35,053 bases of DNA from Acidisphaera sp. GTDB taxonomy: Bacteria > Pseudomonadota > Alphaproteobacteria > Acetobacterales > Acetobacteraceae. The stretch lies in NCBI GenBank assembly GCA_019240635.1, contig JAFAYA010000116.1, positions 1 through 35,053 on the forward strand, given 5' to 3'. Below the pieces are notes generated by a model. The model was given only the letters and a program-made list of their open reading frames with translations, made no database searches and was not told the DNA's origin. Shown piece by piece: positions 5,401 through 26,282 of the stretch. Positions within the stretch are counted from its first letter, which is position 1, and the number at the start of each line of letters is the position of its first letter. Made by a program: the position numbers and the translations under genes.

Positions 5401-6525
5401 TCACTCCGCGGCAGCCGGCACTGGCTGCGGGGCGGCGGCGAGCTCGGCGGCCTTGGCTTCCACCATCTCCACGATGTGGTCGATCATGCGGTCGGCCTCG
5501 ATCGTGTGGTCGGTGCGGCCGGCGCGATAGACCATGTGGCGGCCGGCACCGCCGCCGGTGATGCCGAGATCGGTCATAAGCGCCTCGCCCGGCCCGTTCA
5601 CCACGCAGCCGATGATCGACAGGGTCAGCGGCGTCTCGATATGCGCGAGCCGTTCTTCCAGCGCGGCGACGGTCTCGATCACATTGAATCCCTGCCGCGC
5701 GCAGGACGGGCAGGAGATGATGCGCACGCCGCGATGCCGCAGGCCCAAGGATTTCAGCAGCTCCCAGCCGACCAGCACCTCCTCCTCCGGCTCGGCGGAG
5801 AGGCTGACGCGCAGGGTGTCGCCGATGCCGGCCCAGAGCAGGCTGCCGAGCCCGATGGCCGACTTTACCGTGCCGGTGCGCCGGCCGCCGGCCTCGGTTA
5901 TCCCGATATGCAGGGGATGGTCGCAGACCTCGGCGAGCTGCTGGTACGCAGCGACCGCCATGAACACGTCGGACGCCTTCACGCTGATCTTGAAATCGTG
6001 GAAATCGTGGTCCTGCAGGATCTTCGCGTGCTCGAGCGCGCTCTCGACCAGCGCCTCGGGGTTGGGCTCGCCGTATTTCTCCAGCAGATGGCGCTCCAGC
6101 GAGCCGGCGTTGACGCCGATGCGCATCGAGCAGCCGTGGTCGCGCGCCGCCTTCACCACCTCGCGCACTCGCTCCGGGCTGCCGATGTTGCCGGGGTTGA
6201 TGCGCAGGCAGGCGGCACCGCTCTCGGCGGCCTCGATGGCGCGCTTGTAGTGAAAATGGATGTCGGCGACGACCGGCACGTCCACCTGGCGGACGATGTC
6301 GGCGAGCGCCAGCGCGCTTGGCTGGTCGGGGCAGGAGACCCGGACGATGTCCACGCCGGCGCGCTCGGCGCGGCGGATCTGGGCGACCGTCCCGGCCACA
6401 TCGGTGGTCGGCGTGTTCGTCATGGTCTGCACGCTGATCGGCGCGCCGTCGCCGACCGGAACGCGGCCGACATAGACCCGCCGGGACTTTCGGCGGTCGA
6501 TCTGCTGGTATGGGCGATAGCTCAT
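5401..6525 (-). CDS. ispG: 4-hydroxy-3-methylbut-2-en-1-yl diphosphate synthase (flavodoxin/ferredoxin)
   Basis: The 374-residue protein carries out the reductive ring opening of methylerythritol cyclodiphosphate in the MEP isoprenoid pathway. The three [4Fe-4S] cysteines are in ISCPSCARQ (CxxC) and in [11 protein letters not shown] near the C-terminus. The TIM-barrel substrate domain opens with [10 protein letters not shown] and QTMTNTPT. The frame stays open upstream, but the ATG at 6525 (MSYRPYQQ) fits the family N-terminus and has GGAGCGAG 5 bases upstream. The extension to 6717 is low-complexity arginine/proline shadow sequence. It lies between rodZ and the HTH gene. Confidence 0.97.
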
Positions 6526-6613
6526 TCGGACTCGCTCCGATGGTGCGTTGCAGCACAATGGCGTGCTGCCCCCAGGATTTCCACCGCTTCCCTGGCTGGC
6601 AGGTATGCGAGGG

Positions 6614-7708
6614 CTACTGCGGAGCCGCCGCGGCCTGGCCCGTGGGCAATGGCGGGGAGGGCGGCTGCGGCGACGGGGTGGCGGCCGACTGAGCCGGGCG
6701 TGGCGGCGCCTTGGCATTGGCGATCTGCGCCTGCAGCTTGCCGTCCTTGATCATGTCCGGGTCGAGCGGCAGGTCCCGGCGCACCGCGCCGTTGGCGCCG
6801 ATCGACGGAGCCACGCTGCCGTCGACCAGAAGGTCGAGCCCGCCGGCATTGCCGGTCGTCAGCACGGGCTGCGGACCGGCCGGCACCGGCCAGGCCTCGC
6901 CGCTGTGGAGCACCCGGTTCAGCAGCACCTTTCCGGCGGGATCACGCACCTGCACCCAGGCATCGGCATGAGCCCGCAGCACGATGCGTCCCTGATCCGG
7001 TCCGGGCACGGGACTCGACGCTCCCGTCGCGGCGGGGGGCGTTGGACCCGGCACCGCGGCGGGCATCGGCGGCGCGGTGGCGATCGCCGCCGGCGATGCC
7101 GCGCGCAGCGCGGGGGGCGGTGGCGGAATGGCGGCGGCGGCGGAACTCGGCGGCACCGAGGGCACGGCCGGCTCGGGCGCCACCACCGGGGGCGCCGGGG
7201 CGGCCTGGGGCGGCATTGGGGACGCCGGGGCAGGGCTCGCCGTCTCGGCCAGCGGCGCCAGCCGGTCCGGCACCTGCTGCACCGTCTGTCCGGGCTGCTC
7301 GCCGGACATGCGGTACCAGGCCACGTACGCGCCGGCCGCCAGCACCGCGCCGAGCAGTACCACGGCCCCGGTGGGGACGCCGCGCTCCGCCACGGGTGCG
7401 GGAAACTCCAGTTCCGTCCTGCGGTTCACGTCGCCCGCTTCCGCACGGAACCGGCGCGCCACCTCGTCCTGGTCGAGGCCGAGCAGCGCGGCATAGGCGC
7501 GCACGAAACCGATCGTGTAGGTGCCGCCCGGCAGGTCGGCGGTGCGGCCGTCCTCGATCGCCAGCAGGTAGGGATAGCGGATGCGCAGGCTCGCCTCGAC
7601 GTCGTCGAGCGACCAGCCGAGTCGCTCGCGGACGCTCCGCAGCTCCGCCCCGATGCGCGGCGCACCGAGCGGCGCCTCAATCAGATCAGGTTCGGCGGAG
7701 GTGGTCAT
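6614..7708 (-). CDS. rodZ: RodZ-like helix-turn-helix membrane protein with DUF4115
   Basis: The 364-residue protein has the RodZ layout. A cytoplasmic HTH_25 domain spans residues 15-90 ([21 protein letters not shown]), one membrane segment about 113-132, then a Pro/Ala-rich periplasmic linker (145-245), and a DUF4115 beta domain (about 245-325: [20 protein letters not shown]). RodZ links the MreB cytoskeleton to the elongation machinery and helps set cell shape. The ATG is preceded by AAGGGGGCGGC. It is 88 bases from ispG; rodZ-ispG linkage is common in proteobacteria and fits one operon. The alanine/proline tail after DUF4115 is longer than usual. Confidence 0.88.
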
Positions 7709-7838
7709 GCCGCCCCCTTCCGCTCGCTCGCGTCGATCGGCGCCAGCCTCGATCGGTCATCCTGCAGCACGGCGTTCGATCCGCGTCGGCCTCTGTTGCT
7801 GCAAAGCGCTGTAAAATAGCGATCGCCTGCGCGGCATC

Positions 7839-7867
7839 ATCTAACCCCAGACGCCGCCGCTTGCCAA
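7839..7867 (-). promoter_or_regulatory. Possible promoter for rodZ-ispG-HTH-hisS
   Basis: TTGGCA (7862-7867, minus strand) lies 17 bases from TTAGAT (7839-7844) in the 218-base gap between ptsP and rodZ. The -35 is near consensus and the -10 is weak (3 of 6). It would give a leader of about 125 bases. No strong competing structure was seen in the gap. Confidence 0.25.
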
Positions 7868-7926: not shown

Positions 7927-10167
7927 CTACACCTCCAGGCCGTGCTCGCGCGCCCAGGCGGCGAGCGGCTCGCGCAGGCTGGGTGCCCCGCCGGCGCTGT
8001 GGCGCATCGCCCCCAGCACCGGCCGGAACGCCCGCAGATCGGTGGCACCCAGCATCGCCTTGACCGGCAGGATGCCGAGCGCCGGCATCGACAGCGCCGT
8101 GTAGCCGAGCGAGACGAGGGTCAGCGCCTCAAGCGGGCGCGACGCCATCTCGCCGCAGACCGACAGCGCCACGCCGGCCGCCTCGGCCCGCCGGCACAGC
8201 TCCTCCAGCAGGTCGAGCACCGGCGGCGACAGCACGTCGTAGCGGGCGGCGAGCGCCGGCGCGCCGCGATCGGCGGCGAACAAGAACTGCATCAGGTCGT
8301 TGGAGCCGACCGACACGAAGTCCACCTCGGCCAGCAGCTCGGGAAGCTGCCACATCAGCGCCGGCACCTCGAGCATGGTGCCGACCCGCAGCGTTTTCGG
8401 CGCAGGCTCGGCGCGCGCGGCCTCGGCCATCAGCAGCGCGCGGGCGGCGCGGTATTCGGCGACCGTCGCGACCATCGGGAACATCACGCTGAGCGCCCGG
8501 CCGGCCGCCGCCAGCAGCAGCGCCCGAAGCTGGCGGCGCAGCAGCCCCGGCCGGTCCAGCGCGACCCGCAGCGACCGCCAGCCCATCGCCGGGTTATCCT
8601 CCGCCTGCGGCGGGCCGTCCGGCAGCAGCTTGTCGCCGCCGAGATCGAGCGTGCGGAACAGCACCGGGCGGGTCCCGGCCGCGTCGAGCACGCGGCGATA
8701 GACCGCCGCCTGCTCGGCCACGTCCAGCACGGCGCCGCGCGCCAGCATCACGGTCTCGGTGCGAAACAGGCCGATGCCCTCCGCCCCGGTGCTGTCGAGC
8801 TGCTCCAGCTCGAGCGCCAGGCCGACATTCAGCATCAGGCTGACCTTGGTGCCGTCGCGGGTCATCGCCGGCCGGTCGCGCAGGCCGGCCCACTCGGCGC
8901 GGCGGGCGAGGCGGGCCTCCAGCACCCGGCGGTAGGCGGCCTTGGTGTCGACCTCCGGCCGCAGGATCAGCTGCCCCTCGTCGGCGTCCAGTACCGCTTC
9001 GTCCTCGGGCTCGACCGATTCCAGCACGCCGCGCAGCCCGGCGATGGTCGGCAGGCCGAGGGCGCGGGCGATGATCGCGGCGTGGCCGTTGGCGCTGCCC
9101 TCCTCGACCGCCACGCCGGCGATCCCGGCGGCGTGCCAGTCCAGCAGGTCGGCGGGTCCGAGCCGGCGGGCGATCAGGATCGCCCCCGGCGCCACCTCCG
9201 GCCGCGCGTGCCCGTCCAGTGCCGCCAGCAGCCGTCCCGCGAGGTCCTCGAGGTCGGCGACCCGCTCGCGCAGATAGGGGTCGACGATCCGGCGCATCCG
9301 GTCGCGCAGCTCGCCCGTGACCCGGTTCACTGCGGCCTCGGCCGTCAGGCCGCTGCGCACGACGTCCTGCACCCGACGCAGCCAGCCGGCGTCGGCGGCG
9401 ACCAGCCGATACGCTTCGAGCACCTCCCGCGTGGCGCTCGAGCCGGGGTCGGCGGCACCGTTGCCGCCCGGCGGCAGGGAGCCGGCGATCAGCTCGTCGA
9501 GCCCGCGCTGCATCGCCTTCACGGCGCCGCTGAGCCGGGCCAGCTCCTGCTCGGGGTCGTCCGCCAGCAGCCGGCGTGGCGCCGGACCGCTGCCATGCAC
9601 GACCACCGGGCCGACCGCCAGCCCCGGCACCAGGCTCGACGCGGGGAAGCGCCGCGGCAGGGTGGCGGCGACACCTTCTTCCGCCCCGTCCGAGGCGCCG
9701 GCCGCGGCCAGCACCTCGGCCAGCAGCATCGCCACCGTCTCCAGTACCTCGACCTCGTCCTCGGCGTAGCTGCGCGGCGCCCGGTTCTGCACGGCCAGCA
9801 CGCCCATCGTGTGCCCGGCCCGGCGTACCGGCACGGCGAGCAGCGAGATGAACGGTTCCTCCCCGGTCTCCGGCCGGTAGGCAAAGGCGGGGTGATTCTG
9901 CGCGTCCGGCAGGTTCAGCAGCTTGCCGGTCGCTGCGACGATGCCGATGATTCCTTCGCCGACACGCAAGCGCGTGCGGCCGACCGCGTCGGGGCGCAAC
10001 CCCTCGGTGGCGGTCAGCTCCAGGATGTCGCCGGGCCGCATCACGTAGATGGAGCAGACTTCGGCGACCAGCTCGGAGGCGACCAGGCGGACGAGCTGCG
10101 GCAGCGGCGCGGCACCGGACGCCATCGTCGCCCGCAACCTTGCCAGCAGGCGGCGGGGCGTGGACAC
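7927..10167 (-). CDS. ptsP: Phosphoenolpyruvate-protein phosphotransferase of the nitrogen PTS (EI-Ntr)
   Basis: The 746-residue protein is enzyme I of PTS-Ntr. It takes phosphate from PEP and passes it to NPr and EIIA-Ntr, a regulatory chain sensing nitrogen and carbon state. An N-terminal GAF domain (about 15-155, with VGEGIIGIVAATG) precedes the PEP-utiliser N-domain, the phosphohistidine domain with H362 (GHAAIIARALGLP), and the PEP-binding barrel (GTMLEVPAL, VGSNDLMQF, CGEMASRP). The start is GTG at 10167. It follows a nitronate monooxygenase gene by 43 bases and lysC lies just upstream; ptsP next to lysC is a recurring alphaproteobacterial arrangement. Confidence 0.96.
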   Translation of the reverse strand: MSTPRRLLARLRATMASGAAPLPQLVRLVASELVAEVCSIYVMRPGDILELTATEGLRPDAVGRTRLRVGEGIIGIVAATGKLLNLPDAQNHPAFAYRPETGEEPFISLLAVPVRRAGHTMGVLAVQNRAPRSYAEDEVEVLETVAMLLAEVLAAAGASDGAEEGVAATLPRRFPASSLVPGLAVGPVVVHGSGPAPRRLLADDPEQELARLSGAVKAMQRGLDELIAGSLPPGGNGAADPGSSATREVLEAYRLVAADAGWLRRVQDVVRSGLTAEAAVNRVTGELRDRMRRIVDPYLRERVADLEDLAGRLLAALDGHARPEVAPGAILIARRLGPADLLDWHAAGIAGVAVEEGSANGHAAIIARALGLPTIAGLRGVLESVEPEDEAVLDADEGQLILRPEVDTKAAYRRVLEARLARRAEWAGLRDRPAMTRDGTKVSLMLNVGLALELEQLDSTGAEGIGLFRTETVMLARGAVLDVAEQAAVYRRVLDAAGTRPVLFRTLDLGGDKLLPDGPPQAEDNPAMGWRSLRVALDRPGLLRRQLRALLLAAAGRALSVMFPMVATVAEYRAARALLMAEAARAEPAPKTLRVGTMLEVPALMWQLPELLAEVDFVSVGSNDLMQFLFAADRGAPALAARYDVLSPPVLDLLEELCRRAEAAGVALSVCGEMASRPLEALTLVSLGYTALSMPALGILPVKAMLGATDLRAFRPVLGAMRHSAGGAPSLREPLAAWAREHGLEV

Positions 10168-15062: not shown

Positions 15063-16661
15063 TCAGCCGGCACGTTCCGTCTCGGCCGGCACGCCGAACC
15101 GGACGCTGCCGTCACGCGCCACGTCGTGGAGCAGGTCGATCTCCCAGGACAGGTAGGCCCGCATCGCCGCCTCCACCCCGCTGTTGCGGTCGTACGGGCG
15201 GAGATAGACGTCGGCACAGGCCAGGTCCGGCGGGTCGGTGCGGTCCTGCGCGAGGGGCCCGCCCTCGCGCGCCCAGGCGGTAGTGCCGCCTCGCAGCACC
15301 CGCACCGGCGCGCCGGCCAGCGCCCGCACCTCTGCGACCGCGAGGCGCGCCAGCACCGCGTCCGGCGAGGTCAGGACGACCCGCGACGCGCCGGCCAGGG
15401 CCAGGCGAAGCGCCTCCAGCCGGGTGCGGATGCCCCAGAGCGCGCCGGGGATGTGGCCGTCGCGGAATTCCACGCTGCGGGCGAGATCGATCACCACGGC
15501 CCCGTCGGGCTGGTCGGCGAGTGCTGCCGGTTCGATCCAGTCCGCCGGCTCCGCCAGTTCGGGTACCGGCACCGGCGCCGGGCCTTCGCTGCGCGCGCCC
15601 TCCAGTCCGCCTTCCACGACGAAGACGTCGCGGTGGCCCATCTGGCGCAGCCACGCCCCGGCCATGCGGGCGCGCACGCCGTCATCGTCCAGCAGCGCGA
15701 CCCGGGCGTTGCGCACGCCGATCCACCGGTCGGTCGCCTGCACCAGCTGGCCGCCCGGCGCGTTGTGGCTGCCCGGCCGATGGCCGGCGGCGAACTCCGC
15801 GGGGTCGCGCACGTCGAGCGCGTAGAGCGTGCGGTCGGGGTCCTCCTCGTAGCGCGCGAGGTCGAGTGCGCCGATGACGCCCACGCCCGACGCCTCGGCG
15901 AACGCCCGGGCGCGCGCCAGCGCCTGGTCGGCGGTGCGCGGCCGCCCGTCCGGGTAGCGCGCGGTGCTGCCGCGATCCGGTCGCAAGCCCGCGAGTTCCC
16001 AGCCCATCGTCCCGTTGCGCAGCGCCAGCACGCGATTGGGGATGCCGGCGCGGCGCAGGCTCTCGGCGCCGAGGATGCTGCGCGTGCGCCCGGCGCAGTT
16101 CACCACCACGGTGGTCGCGGGATCGGGCGCCAGGTCGCCGATGCGATAGACCAGCTCGCCCCCGGGCACGTTGACCCCCCGGGGGATCGACATCCGGGTG
16201 AATTCGTCGAGCGGCCGGCTGTCGAGCACCAGCACGTTGCGGCCCTCGTCCAGCCAGGCCCGCAGGTCCGGCGCATCGATGCTTTCGGTGCCGTAGTGGT
16301 GCTCGACCCACTCGCCGAACGCCTTCGAGGGCACGTTGACGCCGGTGAACAGCACGCCTCCGGCCGCCTGCCAGGCCGGCGTGCCGCCCTCCAGCACGCT
16401 CACATCGGCGGCTCCGATGTCCGTCAGCCAGCCGGCCAGGCGCTCGGCGACGCCGCGGCCGTCATCGACGCAGACGACGCGCACGGCGAGCCGGGGAAGC
16501 AGGGCGCGCGCGTCGATCTCCCGGCGGGAGAGCGGGCAGGGCACCGCCCAGAACAGGTGGCCGGTGCCGAACTCGCCCTCCTCGCGGGCGTCCAGGATGG
16601 CGAGCTCGCCCCCGTCGGCGATCGCCGCGCGCAGCTCCGCCGGGCCGATCCGGCGCATCAC
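15063..16661 (-). CDS. Multidomain rhodanese (four rhodanese-like domains)
   Basis: The 532-residue protein contains four rhodanese-like repeats, opening near residues 5, 127, 263 and 377 (DARE, DSRP, DVRD and DLAR motifs). Only the first two keep a cysteine at the loop: C64 in CVDDGRG and C189 in CAGRTRS. In domain 3 the loop is LLDDDGVRAR and in domain 4 it is LTSPDAVLAR, without cysteine. Catalytic domains would transfer sulfur to an acceptor such as cyanide, glutathione or a protein; the others probably bind or position a partner. It starts with GTG in a GTGA overlap with the thiol dioxygenase stop (ATG at 16658 is an alternative), so the two are coupled. Confidence 0.9.
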   Translation of the reverse strand: MMRRIGPAELRAAIADGGELAILDAREEGEFGTGHLFWAVPCPLSRREIDARALLPRLAVRVVCVDDGRGVAERLAGWLTDIGAADVSVLEGGTPAWQAAGGVLFTGVNVPSKAFGEWVEHHYGTESIDAPDLRAWLDEGRNVLVLDSRPLDEFTRMSIPRGVNVPGGELVYRIGDLAPDPATTVVVNCAGRTRSILGAESLRRAGIPNRVLALRNGTMGWELAGLRPDRGSTARYPDGRPRTADQALARARAFAEASGVGVIGALDLARYEEDPDRTLYALDVRDPAEFAAGHRPGSHNAPGGQLVQATDRWIGVRNARVALLDDDGVRARMAGAWLRQMGHRDVFVVEGGLEGARSEGPAPVPVPELAEPADWIEPAALADQPDGAVVIDLARSVEFRDGHIPGALWGIRTRLEALRLALAGASRVVLTSPDAVLARLAVAEVRALAGAPVRVLRGGTTAWAREGGPLAQDRTDPPDLACADVYLRPYDRNSGVEAAMRAYLSWEIDLLHDVARDGSVRFGVPAETERAG

Positions 16662-20622: not shown

Positions 20623-21912
20623 ATGTTCGGCGGTCGAAAAGTCATCCTGACGACCTTCGCCGGTCGTCGGGATCGGATGCGTTTGCTCGCCGCCTATGCG
20701 CGCGAGGCGATCCGGCGCGGCCTGATAGATGAGTGGCACGTCTGGAACTTCGCCCGCACCGAGGAAGACCGGCTCTGGCTGAGGCAGACATTTCCCGTGG
20801 TTGCTCGCATTCCCGGCAATCACCGCTATGTCAGGCTGGGCGAGATGCAGGGGGATGGCGCCGCAAGCTCGTTCCGCGTCAGCGTGCGCTGCGGCCACGA
20901 CTTCGTGCTCGGCCTTCGGCCGCGCGACGGCGGCGATTGCTACGAGATCGTGCTGGGCGGCTGGGGCAATCTGCGCAGCGTGATCCGCCGGCTGCCGGCG
21001 GAGAACGCGCTGCGCATCGACAGCCTGCCCTGGCTGGAGGGCGAACTCCTGCATGACGCCGAAACTCCGGGCGTGCTGGCCAGCGCCGCCTGGCGCGAGG
21101 TGCATCTGCAGATCGGCGCCGACACGGTGCGCGTCGATGTCGACGGCCACGCGGCCCTGCGCTTCGCGATCCCCGGCCTGTCGCCGGAGTGCGACGTGTT
21201 CGGCCTGAGCGGCTGGGGCGGTCACGCCGAGCTGCGCATGCACGGCCCGCCGGTGGCGATCAAGCGCTTCGAGGCGGAGGGCAGCTATGCGGTCAGCGGC
21301 TTCGGCGAGTTCTACCACTACTATGCCGATCGCGCGCCGGAATACGCGACGGCGATCTTCGTCAAGTGCGACGACGACATCGTCTACATCGACCTCGACC
21401 GCTTCGATCGGTTCCTCGAGTTCAGGTTCGGGCGGCCGGACTATTTCGTGGTCAGCGCCAACGTCGTGAACAACGGGGTCTGCGCCTTCCACCAGCGCAG
21501 CTACGGCGCCTATCCCCGCGAGCTCATGGAATTCGACGGTCCGATCACCGACTTCATCATGCGCCAGTGGGCCGACGCCGAATTCACCTCCGCCTTGCAC
21601 GAGACGTTCGTGCGCGATCCCGGGCCATTCTCGCGCGCGCCGGTCGATCGTGTGGAGTGGAGCGAGCGCATCAGCATCAACTTCATTTCTTTCCTCGGCC
21701 TGGACCTCGACCACATCGGGGTGAACCACGACGACGACGAACGCCATCTGAGCGTCACGATCCCGCGCCGGCTGGGGCGGCGCAACGCGTTCTTCATGCC
21801 GTTCAACGTGGCCCACCTGTCATTCTTCCCACAGGAGGCGGGCCTCGACCTCGGTCGCGTTCTCGGCCTGTACGAGGGCCTGGCGCAGGCGCGCGGCATT
21901 CCGCTCGGCTGA
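20623..21912 (+). CDS. Glycosyltransferase-like protein with an inserted FAMeT-like domain
   Basis: The 429-residue protein seems to be split. Residues 1-70 (VILTTFAGRRDRM, IDEWHVWNF) and 215-429 (KRFEAEGSYAV, YATAIFVKCDDDIVYIDLDRF) look like one GT-A-type domain; D250-D252 is a candidate metal motif. Between them, residues about 75-210 match the pattern of the farnesoic-acid O-methyltransferase-like domain (YEIVLGGWGNLRSVIRR, FGLSGWGG), a fold mainly known from animals and probably carbohydrate-binding. No signal peptide or membrane segment is seen. It may modify a surface polysaccharide. Followed 58 bases later by the LLM oxidoreductase. The glycosyltransferase assignment is inferred from motifs only. 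Confidence 0.55.
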   Translation: MFGGRKVILTTFAGRRDRMRLLAAYAREAIRRGLIDEWHVWNFARTEEDRLWLRQTFPVVARIPGNHRYVRLGEMQGDGAASSFRVSVRCGHDFVLGLRPRDGGDCYEIVLGGWGNLRSVIRRLPAENALRIDSLPWLEGELLHDAETPGVLASAAWREVHLQIGADTVRVDVDGHAALRFAIPGLSPECDVFGLSGWGGHAELRMHGPPVAIKRFEAEGSYAVSGFGEFYHYYADRAPEYATAIFVKCDDDIVYIDLDRFDRFLEFRFGRPDYFVVSANVVNNGVCAFHQRSYGAYPRELMEFDGPITDFIMRQWADAEFTSALHETFVRDPGPFSRAPVDRVEWSERISINFISFLGLDLDHIGVNHDDDERHLSVTIPRRLGRRNAFFMPFNVAHLSFFPQEAGLDLGRVLGLYEGLAQARGIPLG

Positions 21913-24112: not shown

Positions 24113-24970
24113 TCAGGCCGCTTCGCGGACCCGCAGCAGGCCGATCAGCCGCCCCAGCGTGTCGCGCAGTTCGGTGCGCTTCACCACCATGTCGACGATG
24201 CCATGCGCGAGCAGATACTCGGCGCGCTGAAAACCCTCCGGCAGCGTCTCGCGCACCGTCTGCTCGATGACCCGCGGTCCCGCAAAACCGATCAGCGCGC
24301 CGGGCTCGGCGATCTGGATGTCGCCCAGCATCGCGAAGCTCGCGGTCACGCCGCCGGTCGTCGGATCGGTCAGCACGACGATGAACGGCAGCCCGGCCTC
24401 GCGGACCAGCTGCACCGCGAGCGTGGTGCGCGGCATCTGCATGAGCGAGAGCGCGCCCTCCTGCATCCGTGCGCCGCCCGAGGCGGTATAGACGATGAGC
24501 GGCGCGTCCTGCAGCACGGCCAGCCGCGCCGCGGCGACGATGCCTTCCCCCACCGCCGCACCCATCGATCCCGCCATGAACGCGAACTCCATCGCCGCGA
24601 CGACGGCGCGCTGTCCGGCGATGCTGCCGTGCGCGGCCAGCACCGCATCATCGAGCTGGGTGGCGTCGCGGCTCTCGCGCAGGCGGTCCGGATAGCGCTT
24701 GGTATCGCGGAAGCGCAGCGGGTCCGCGGCAGCTTTCGGCAGCTCGATGCGCGTCGCGCTGCCGGCGTCGAACGTCCAGGCCAGCCGCTCGGCGGCGCTG
24801 GCGCGCATGTGGTGGCCGCAATGCGGGCAGACCTTAAAGCTCTTCTCGAGGTCTTTCGAGAAGATCATCTGCTGGCAGGAAGGGCACTGCACCCAGAGAT
24901 TGTCCGGCACGTCCCGCCGTCCCAGCAGGGTGCGGATCTTGGGGCGGACATATTCCGTCAGCCAGCTCAT
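24113..24970 (-). CDS. accD: Acetyl-CoA carboxylase carboxyltransferase subunit beta
   Basis: The 285-residue subunit joins AccA to move the carboxyl group from biotin to acetyl-CoA, the first step of fatty acid synthesis. The zinc ribbon is CPSCQQMIF and CPHCGHH; the crotonase-like body has TASGGARMQEGALSLMQMP and DPTTGGVTASFAMLGD. The ATG at 24970 (MSWLTEYV) fits the family; the frame upstream to 25198 is not conserved. In many relatives trpB and trpA come directly before accD; here a divergent reductase gene takes their place. Confidence 0.97.
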   Translation of the reverse strand: MSWLTEYVRPKIRTLLGRRDVPDNLWVQCPSCQQMIFSKDLEKSFKVCPHCGHHMRASAAERLAWTFDAGSATRIELPKAAADPLRFRDTKRYPDRLRESRDATQLDDAVLAAHGSIAGQRAVVAAMEFAFMAGSMGAAVGEGIVAAARLAVLQDAPLIVYTASGGARMQEGALSLMQMPRTTLAVQLVREAGLPFIVVLTDPTTGGVTASFAMLGDIQIAEPGALIGFAGPRVIEQTVRETLPEGFQRAEYLLAHGIVDMVVKRTELRDTLGRLIGLLRVREAA

Positions 24971-25165
24971 GCAGCCCTGTCCATCGCGTGATGTCCTGTC
25001 CGGAGGCGTGCGACCGGGGTGGCGGGAGGCTGCGTCGGGCCGCCCAGCCGCCGGCACGCGGGCTGACGGCACCGCGCCGCGCGCCCGCACCGGCCGATCA
25101 TACTCCTCCGCCGCTCCGGCCGCATAGATCGGCGACGCGCGCTGTCGGCCCGGCGCGGCAGCGGC

Positions 25166-25171
25166 TATCAT
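25166..25171 (+). promoter_or_regulatory. Possible -10 element of the reductase-dioxygenase pair
   Basis: TATCAT lies 26 bases before the ATG at 25197, a plausible distance. No good -35 was seen 17 bases upstream (TGTCGG). The 226-base gap 24971-25196 otherwise shows only GC-rich sequence. Confidence 0.2.
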
Positions 25172-25196
25172 GGCGCTGCAAGGCAGGGAGGGCGGC

Positions 25197-26282
25197 ATGG
25201 CGGTGAGGATCGCGGTGGTCGGCGCCGGCGCGGTCGGCGGCTATGTCGGCGGACACCTGGCGCGGCTGGGTTTCGACGTCACGCTGATCGACCCGTGGCC
25301 CGAGCACGTGGAAGCGATCCGCGCGCGCGGGCTGGAGCTGACCGGCGTGACGGCCGAAGAAGCCTGCACGGTGCGGGCGAACGTGCTGCACGTGACGGAG
25401 CTGCAGGACCCGCGGCGCGCGCCCTTCGATATCGGCATCGTCTCCGTCAAATCCTACGATACGGAATGGGCGACCATGCTGATCCGGCCCTATCTGGCGC
25501 CCGACGGCTACATTCTGTCGCTGCAGAACTGCATCAATGAGGAGCGGATCGCCGGCATCGTCGGCTGGGGGCGCACGGTCGGCTGCATCGCGGCGCGCAT
25601 CTCCGTCGATCTGCATGAGGCCGGGCGCATCCGCCGCACCGTGCCAAAGGGCGGTGCGGCGCATACCGTGTTCCGGGTCGGCGAGGTGCATGGGCGGATC
25701 ACGCCGCGGGTCCAGGCGCTCGCCGACATGATCGCGGCGATCGACAGCGTGAAGGTGACCACGAATCTCTGGGGCGAGCGCTGGTCGAAGCTGTGCGTCA
25801 ACGGCATGCGCAACGGCGTCGCCGCGGCAACCGGCCTCGCCGGCAACGACGCCGACCGCGACGATGCCATCCGCCGCTTCGCCATTCGCCTGGGTGGGGA
25901 GGCGGTGCGCGTCGGCCAGGCGCTCGGCTACGATCTCGAGCCGATCGGCACGCTCGATCCCGAACGGCTCGGCCGCGCCGCCGAGGGCGACCGGCGGGCG
26001 CTGGCCGAGGTCGACGCGGCGCTGCTCGCCGGCAGCAACGCCGGCGGGCGCAGCGACTTGCAGCGCCCGTCGATGGGGCAGGACATGCTGAAGGGACGGC
26101 GCACCGAGATCGAGTACATCAACGGCTTCATTGCCGAGAAGGGTGAGGCGATCGGCCGTCCGGCGCCGGCGCATGCGGCGCTGACGGCGCTGGTAAAACG
26201 GGTGGAGCGTGGCGAAACGCCGGCGCGGGCGGAAAATGTGCGGGCGCTTGGCGAACAATTTTGGGCGGAGGCGGGACGATGA
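25197..26282 (+). CDS. Ketopantoate reductase (PanE/ApbA) family protein
   Basis: The 361-residue protein has an N-terminal Rossmann domain (VVGAGAVGGYVGGHLARLG), SVKSYDT, QNCINEERI and the C-domain phrase LWGERWSKLCVNGMRN with the conserved lysine and asparagine. PanE reduces 2-dehydropantoate with NADPH, but this form is about 60 residues longer than usual, so another 2-oxo or 2-hydroxy acid is likely. The start at 25197 is supported by GGGAGG 5 bases before it; the ATG at 25170 is not. It overlaps the TauD-type gene by ATGA, suggesting one pathway. Confidence 0.82.
   Translation: MAVRIAVVGAGAVGGYVGGHLARLGFDVTLIDPWPEHVEAIRARGLELTGVTAEEACTVRANVLHVTELQDPRRAPFDIGIVSVKSYDTEWATMLIRPYLAPDGYILSLQNCINEERIAGIVGWGRTVGCIAARISVDLHEAGRIRRTVPKGGAAHTVFRVGEVHGRITPRVQALADMIAAIDSVKVTTNLWGERWSKLCVNGMRNGVAAATGLAGNDADRDDAIRRFAIRLGGEAVRVGQALGYDLEPIGTLDPERLGRAAEGDRRALAEVDAALLAGSNAGGRSDLQRPSMGQDMLKGRRTEIEYINGFIAEKGEAIGRPAPAHAALTALVKRVERGETPARAENVRALGEQFWAEAGR

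Follow-up and report, generated by a model that had tools for sequence, protein, structure and literature searches.

The window analyzed here is the whole stretch of DNA, 35,053 nucleotides from an Acidisphaera genome of 2.39 Mb that is 72% complete. On its forward strand it carries an open and intact reading frame of 429 codons (20623-21912), which has the GC3 pattern of a real gene. The encoded protein consists of a glycosyltransferase-type core that is interrupted by an inserted domain of the Pfam family PF12248 (Methyltransf_FA, FAMeT), and this two-part composition is well supported. The gene contains the following features:

20623..21912, forward strand: whole gene, glycosyltransferase with inserted FAMeT domain, 429 aa (translation, PF12248 and phrog_4447 matches, GC3)
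20623..20811, forward strand: N-terminal part of the glycosyltransferase core, residues 1-63, beta-alpha-beta-alpha, with GR at 14-15 and an EWHxW motif at 37-41 (model, alignment with insert-less homologues)
20812..21252, forward strand: inserted domain, residues ~64-210, PF12248 (E 4.8e-11), modelled as a galectin/CBM66-like beta-sandwich, absent in relatives
20956..20970, forward strand: GGWGN motif, residues 112-116, the best conserved stretch of the insert (alignment)
21253..21909, forward strand: C-terminal part of the glycosyltransferase core, residues 211-429 (best phrog_4447 stretch 223-357; aligns with insert-less homologues)
21370..21378, forward strand: DDD motif, residues 250-252, a DXD motif with a predicted role in metal and donor binding by analogy with the GT-A motif; invariant in 13/13 aligned sequences
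21736..21741, forward strand: DE, residues 372-373, candidate xED catalytic-base motif; [DE]E in 13/13, role by analogy (PMC7185993)
21814..21816, forward strand: H398, candidate C-terminal metal-binding histidine; invariant in 13/13, role by analogy (PMC7185993)

The flanks of the insert matched the family phrog_4447 'glycosyltransferase' in two stretches (E 6.8e-25), and the same family was matched by all of the 11 members tested. Besides the DDD, [DE]E and histidine motifs listed above, the residues GR14-15 are invariant or nearly so in the alignment of 13 members, whether or not these carry the insert. Fold-A glycosyltransferases build their active site from DxD, xED and a C-terminal histidine (PMC7185993); inverting ones typically have an acidic xED base. 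For xED and the histidine, the roles were assigned here by order and spacing only. In the structural model the core runs b-a-b-a ... b-a-b(DDD)-b-a-b (b, beta-strand; a, alpha-helix), that is beta/alpha around the motifs, with parts of it poorly modelled. The profile match and the motifs are in line with the GT-A-like core with a DDD motif that had been proposed in the preliminary description.

The closest named proteins with such a core are phage glycosyltransferases of phrog_4447. Mycobacteriophage Corazon gp81, for example, is homologous to the core over its full length and shares its DDD, [DE]E and H motifs; unlike the window protein, the phage members are only 270-320 aa long and contain no FAMeT insert. 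GlfT2, a galactofuranosyltransferase of GT2 with which the window protein probably has the donor in common, shows the same motif order with nearly the same spacing (DDD256-258, DD371-372; PMC7168186), whereas a sequence relation between it and the window family was not detectable in PDB searches. No meaningful match to PDB sequences was obtained, whether the query was the window protein, the family profile or one of two insert-less members. Assignment to GT2 was considered and rejected: the GT2 family PF00535 (cut-off 23.3 bits) was not matched by the window protein and only weakly by insert-less members (best 16.9 bits, E 0.0065, below the cut-off), and comparison of the core profile with 29 GT2 proteins using hhalign was negative. 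For these reasons we do not file the family in GT2. The same profile also gave a negative result with two DUF707 proteins.

The middle part of the protein had been described as FAMeT-like. A Pfam search with the full protein showed that PF12248 covers residues 67-206 with 43 bits (E 4.8e-11), well above the curated cut-off of 24.2 bits. When the three segments of the protein were searched separately, PF12248 was obtained with the middle segment (43.8 bits), and no Pfam match was obtained with residues 1-75 and 210-429. The motifs on which the description was based are located at residues 107-116 (YEIVLGGWGN) and 196-200 (SGWGG), followed by the DDD at 250-252. PF12248 was matched by eight of the 11 homologues found first. 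It is otherwise rare, being present in 4 of 398 genomes in a sample of the phylum, and the match in the 429 aa protein is the single one in the window genome.

PF12248 is poorly characterised and occurs in animal adhesives, shells and arthropod proteins. The animal FAMeT proteins (from insects, crustaceans and others) exceed the Pfam cut-off as the window insert does; there, the domain is found in tandem or together with DUF3421 and its function is unclear (PMC10015273), whereas in the window protein it is located inside a glycosyltransferase. No animal protein with PF12248 within a glycosyltransferase is described in the literature searched. The domain is also part of sea-star adhesive proteins, where its role is unknown (PMC9382459). 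The statement that FAMeT is known mostly from animals is thus half right, since a small bacterial family exists in Actinomycetota, Alpha- and Gammaproteobacteria. In genome G423, PF12248 is found on a different protein of 233 aa (locus L034, 1462-2163, reverse strand), which is apparently exported; this protein suggests an overlap between PF12248 and lectin domains of the secreted ConA-like type.

Homologues containing the insert were found in six Nocardia species, one Steroidobacteraceae MAG, three rhizobial plasmids and, within the family to which the window belongs, two genomes; those from Nocardia and the Rhizobium plasmids have 37-42% identity to the window protein. Because the same insert is present in Nocardia, Rhizobiaceae, the Steroidobacteraceae MAG and the family of the window, it defines a bacterial family and is therefore not a one-off. 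Relatives lacking the insert are found in Alphaproteobacteria (318 aa in G027 and 343 aa in G146), in which the whole remainder of the protein aligns, and in phages (Corazon gp81, phiGD20-1 gp108 and Synechococcus phage B23 gp354). The closest insert-less relatives (L112 and L113) are 35-44% identical, and their core is colinear on both sides of the insert position. In 47 viral loci, some of them on the same contig, the EWHxW-type motif is separated from the DDD by 55-88 residues, versus 211 in the window protein. Scans of viral contigs were successful when the patterns came from broader alignments and phage members; patterns based on the window protein or on close relatives of it gave no hit. 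Since the insert-less homologues keep both flanks colinear, residues ~64-210 are a true insertion in the glycosyltransferase core. A FAMeT domain splitting a glycosyltransferase-like protein in two had been suspected at residues 75-210; the inserted stretch is real, and the insert-less relatives set its limits slightly wider.

An AlphaFold2 model was built from eight sequences and reached a mean pLDDT of 65 and a pTM of 0.54. The insert (residues 66-208) was modelled all-beta with a pLDDT of mostly 70-89 and forms a separate module inside the beta/alpha core, so that the predicted structure is not one continuous domain. Within the core, modelling was fair for the first third and around the DDD, and residues 279-317 are unreliable (pLDDT <50). 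The C-terminal part (203-429) folded alone had a pLDDT of 51 and was left out of the fold search. The best Foldseek matches in the PDB were CBM66 and galectins (E 1.6e-6 to 1e-5), obtained via the insert. VIA gave Z 12.7 for the galectin LEC-6 and 12.1 for the fructan-binding CBM66, with an rmsd of 2.5-3.0 Å over 124-130 residues; VIA Z values of 7-8 are common by chance. The insert is thus modelled as a galectin/CBM66-like beta-sandwich. The search with the full model returned no known GT-A fold among the matches listed, which were filled by matches of the insert, and this does not count as evidence against such a fold; because the glycosyltransferase part is poorly modelled, the fold search does not confirm the GT-A fold. 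The best viral structural match was a 565 aa protein of Pithovirus LCPAC201 annotated as 'macrocin-O-methyltransferase', which aligned over the whole model with a TM of 0.40 and may be a giant-virus glycosyltransferase-methyltransferase relative.

The similarity to galectins and CBM66 (Z ~12) concerns the predicted fold: sequence identity is ~10%, and the insert sits inside a catalytic domain. Inspection of the translation showed that the galectin HxNxR sugar-binding signature is absent from residues 64-210, and sugar binding therefore does not follow from the fold. Six residues of the insert (D93, E108, G112, N116, G197 and G199) are invariant across distant members in the 13-member alignment, making them candidates for a ligand site or a structural role. 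In the model, helix B (47-56) precedes the insert and helix C (226-236) follows it. Strand 3 of the core may be formed by residues 60-63 or 213-217, the alignment fitting either; with both choices the insert would be located at or beside the loop between strand 3 and helix C, which is the hypervariable region HV1. HV1 is varied among GT-A enzymes, and such loops have been proposed to set acceptor specificity (PMC7185993).

We favour the interpretation that the lectin-like insert would hold the growing acceptor glycan beside the active site, a reading that we consider slightly more probable than not. Holding the acceptor in this way would favour chain extension or the choice of a particular acceptor. 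GT27 GalNAc-transferases and MGAT4A carry a lectin module as a C-terminal appendage. The idea of a lectin module that steers a glycosyltransferase is common to these enzymes (PMC4432651, PMC9296478) and to the window protein; in the latter, however, the module is within the catalytic core, and the protein is bacterial and unrelated in sequence. Alternatively, the insert could have a structural role, mediate oligomerisation or act as a spacer, without any sugar binding, which we regard as possible but doubtful. The missing galectin signature residues would fit such a role, as would the divergence of the insert, which is faster than that of the core (mean identity 27% versus 46%). The six invariant residues, on the other hand, fit a retained site, and could equally be structural. 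Folds of the FAMeT/galectin type are also used in protein-protein contacts. An extension of the acceptor-holding interpretation would be that PF12248 is a galectin-like carbohydrate-binding module which in bacteria became an internal acceptor-tethering subsite, making a new galactofuranosyltransferase family processive; we offer this as a tentative idea.

The proposed donor was derived from neighbouring genes. UDP-galactopyranose mutase (Glf) makes UDP-Galf, and its gene adjoins or neighbours relatives of the window gene in four unrelated contexts, insert-bearing as well as insert-less. In plasmids of Pseudorhizobium and Rhizobium it directly follows the family gene; in G146 the distance to the insert-less gene is ~0.9 kb, and a viral glf (PF03275 E 1e-48) starts 4 bp behind an insert-less gene. 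On the Steroidobacteraceae contig, from a gammaproteobacterial MAG, the gene order is glycosyltransferase, GT4, glf, DUF4422; DUF4422 is the GT111 galactofuranosyltransferase domain (PMC12269835). We consider UDP-Galf the probable donor. A fold-A glycosyltransferase with FAMeT insert that uses another donor, such as a rhamnose-type or methylated sugar, with glf being coincidental or lineage-specific, appears rather unlikely to us, although several observations point in this direction. glf was found neither in the window genome (72% complete) nor in G027 (95% complete), and in Nocardia and G389/G456 it is encoded elsewhere in the genome, distant from the family gene. A second recurrent partner is a sugar-type O-methyltransferase (TylF/Methyltransf_24), which is fused to the family protein in Nocardia (L005/L006) and adjoins the family gene in Corazon (gp80 beside gp81) and on the viral contig L115; in Synechococcus phage B23 the family gene is near a glucose-1-phosphate thymidylyltransferase gene. 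Against another donor stands the presence of glf beside or near the gene in G146, the rhizobial plasmids, viral contigs and the gammaproteobacterial MAG, which holds for insert-bearing and insert-less members alike.

With UDP-Galf as donor, the gene product would be a cytoplasmic fold-A glycosyltransferase from the phrog_4447-like family, metal-dependent and probably inverting, which most likely moves galactofuranose from UDP-Galf onto a surface glycan. UDP-Galf and a divalent metal would be bound at the DDD/His site, and the DE pair (372-373) would supply the base. In this scheme the insertion, the identity of the inserted domain, the conserved motifs and the recurring glf neighbourhood are observations, and we infer which donor is used exactly, that the mechanism is inverting, that the insert binds sugar and how it affects catalysis. 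As a whole, a metal-dependent, probably galactofuranosyl transferase with an inserted lectin-like, acceptor-holding module is the reading that we consider fairly probable.

It is highly improbable that the insert is a farnesoic acid-type O-methyltransferase and the protein a bifunctional glycosyl/methyl transferase: the Pfam name and the fusion of Nocardia members to a genuine SAM methyltransferase would suggest it, but the latter is a distinct C-terminal domain, the modelled insert is a sandwich of beta-strands only and lacks a Rossmann SAM site, and for the animal FAMeT proteins, which are perhaps not enzymes, methylation was never reliably shown (PMC10015273). The FAMeT name need not, as far as the model indicates, imply methyltransferase activity here. 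PF12248 has been named after an activity that was not reliably shown, and in the window family a module predicted to be galectin-like is placed inside a sugar-transferring enzyme, which is a hint that the animal FAMeT domain may be a sugar-binding module.

Horizontal transfer of the inserted part had been suggested as one explanation for its presence. Whole-segment GC does differ within the gene (72.6% versus 63-64%); GC3, however, is equal in insert (0.905) and C-terminal part (0.895), and the GC difference therefore stems from amino-acid composition. In addition, the identities of insert and core are correlated (r 0.88). A recent transfer of the insert alone is thus not supported, and the insertion is old compared with the spread of the family, because GC3 is the same and the identities of both parts are correlated. 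Core trees require two changes between presence and absence of the insert, and the constraint that all insert-bearing sequences form one group was not rejected (p-AU values of 0.205, 0.213 and 0.067). The phage branches in these trees are long, so that gain and loss of the insert may have occurred in either order.

In the window, the gene is flanked by chpT and a gene for an F420-dependent oxidoreductase and stands there as an orphan. moaA and chpT also adjoin in G001, a genome of the same genus, showing that these neighbours on the window contig are typical for the genus. In G001, chpT is followed by ECF sigma/anti-sigma-like genes (read from translations), and the glycosyltransferase gene has no counterpart at the matching place; therefore the whole gene, not the insert alone, looks like an accessory acquisition. 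Within the family of the window, 4 of 200 genomes carry the gene, the insert-less G027 counted in. This scarcity and the lack of the gene in G001 would also fit an assembly chimera or a MAG contaminant, an explanation that is very improbable and already largely excluded, as one continuous reading frame crosses both junctions, independent isolates (Nocardia, Rhizobium plasmids) have the same architecture at 37-42% identity, and the moaA-chpT neighbours match those of the genus. Elsewhere in the window, the accD frame (24113-25198, reverse strand) contains ~76 extra residues ahead of the family match, its true start probably being further in, and the frame at 15063-16661 (reverse strand) encodes a protein of 532 aa in which four stretches are rhodanese-like.

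No bacterial enzyme with this arrangement was known to the preliminary description, and no description of a FAMeT insert in a glycosyltransferase core was found in the literature searched, which lies mostly outside subscription journals. What was already known is the core, as an uncharacterised phage glycosyltransferase cluster only, and the insert, as a Pfam domain; the insert-bearing proteins are an undescribed bacterial family. The number of galactofuranosyltransferases known from bacteria is small. The hypothesis that PF12248 binds glycans becomes directly testable, as a soluble domain of bacterial origin could be used. Furthermore, natural insert-bearing and insert-less versions exist, both beside glf, and their comparison makes the effect of the module on acceptor choice or chain length measurable.

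Several members of the family show further variations in architecture and context. In Nocardia, L005 (7995-10094) and L006 encode the fusion with a C-terminal TylF/Methyltransf_24 SAM methyltransferase, and in L005 a gene for an EmbC-type arabinosyltransferase is located upstream of the fusion gene. In N. albiluteola (L001, 7929-10094) a GT2-like domain continues the reading frame behind the family protein, resulting in a double glycosyltransferase of 721 aa. Nocardia alni (L004) contains two insert-bearing paralogues side by side (5738-7858 and 7986-9344), the first of which lies in a frame of 706 aa and is extended at its C terminus. G389 contains a second copy (L021, ~6290-7541; G389:C1:129283-130537) that is split over two frames and looks decayed. 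The viral contig of L115 (2345-4934) carries two tandem insert-less relatives behind the Methyltransf_24 gene.
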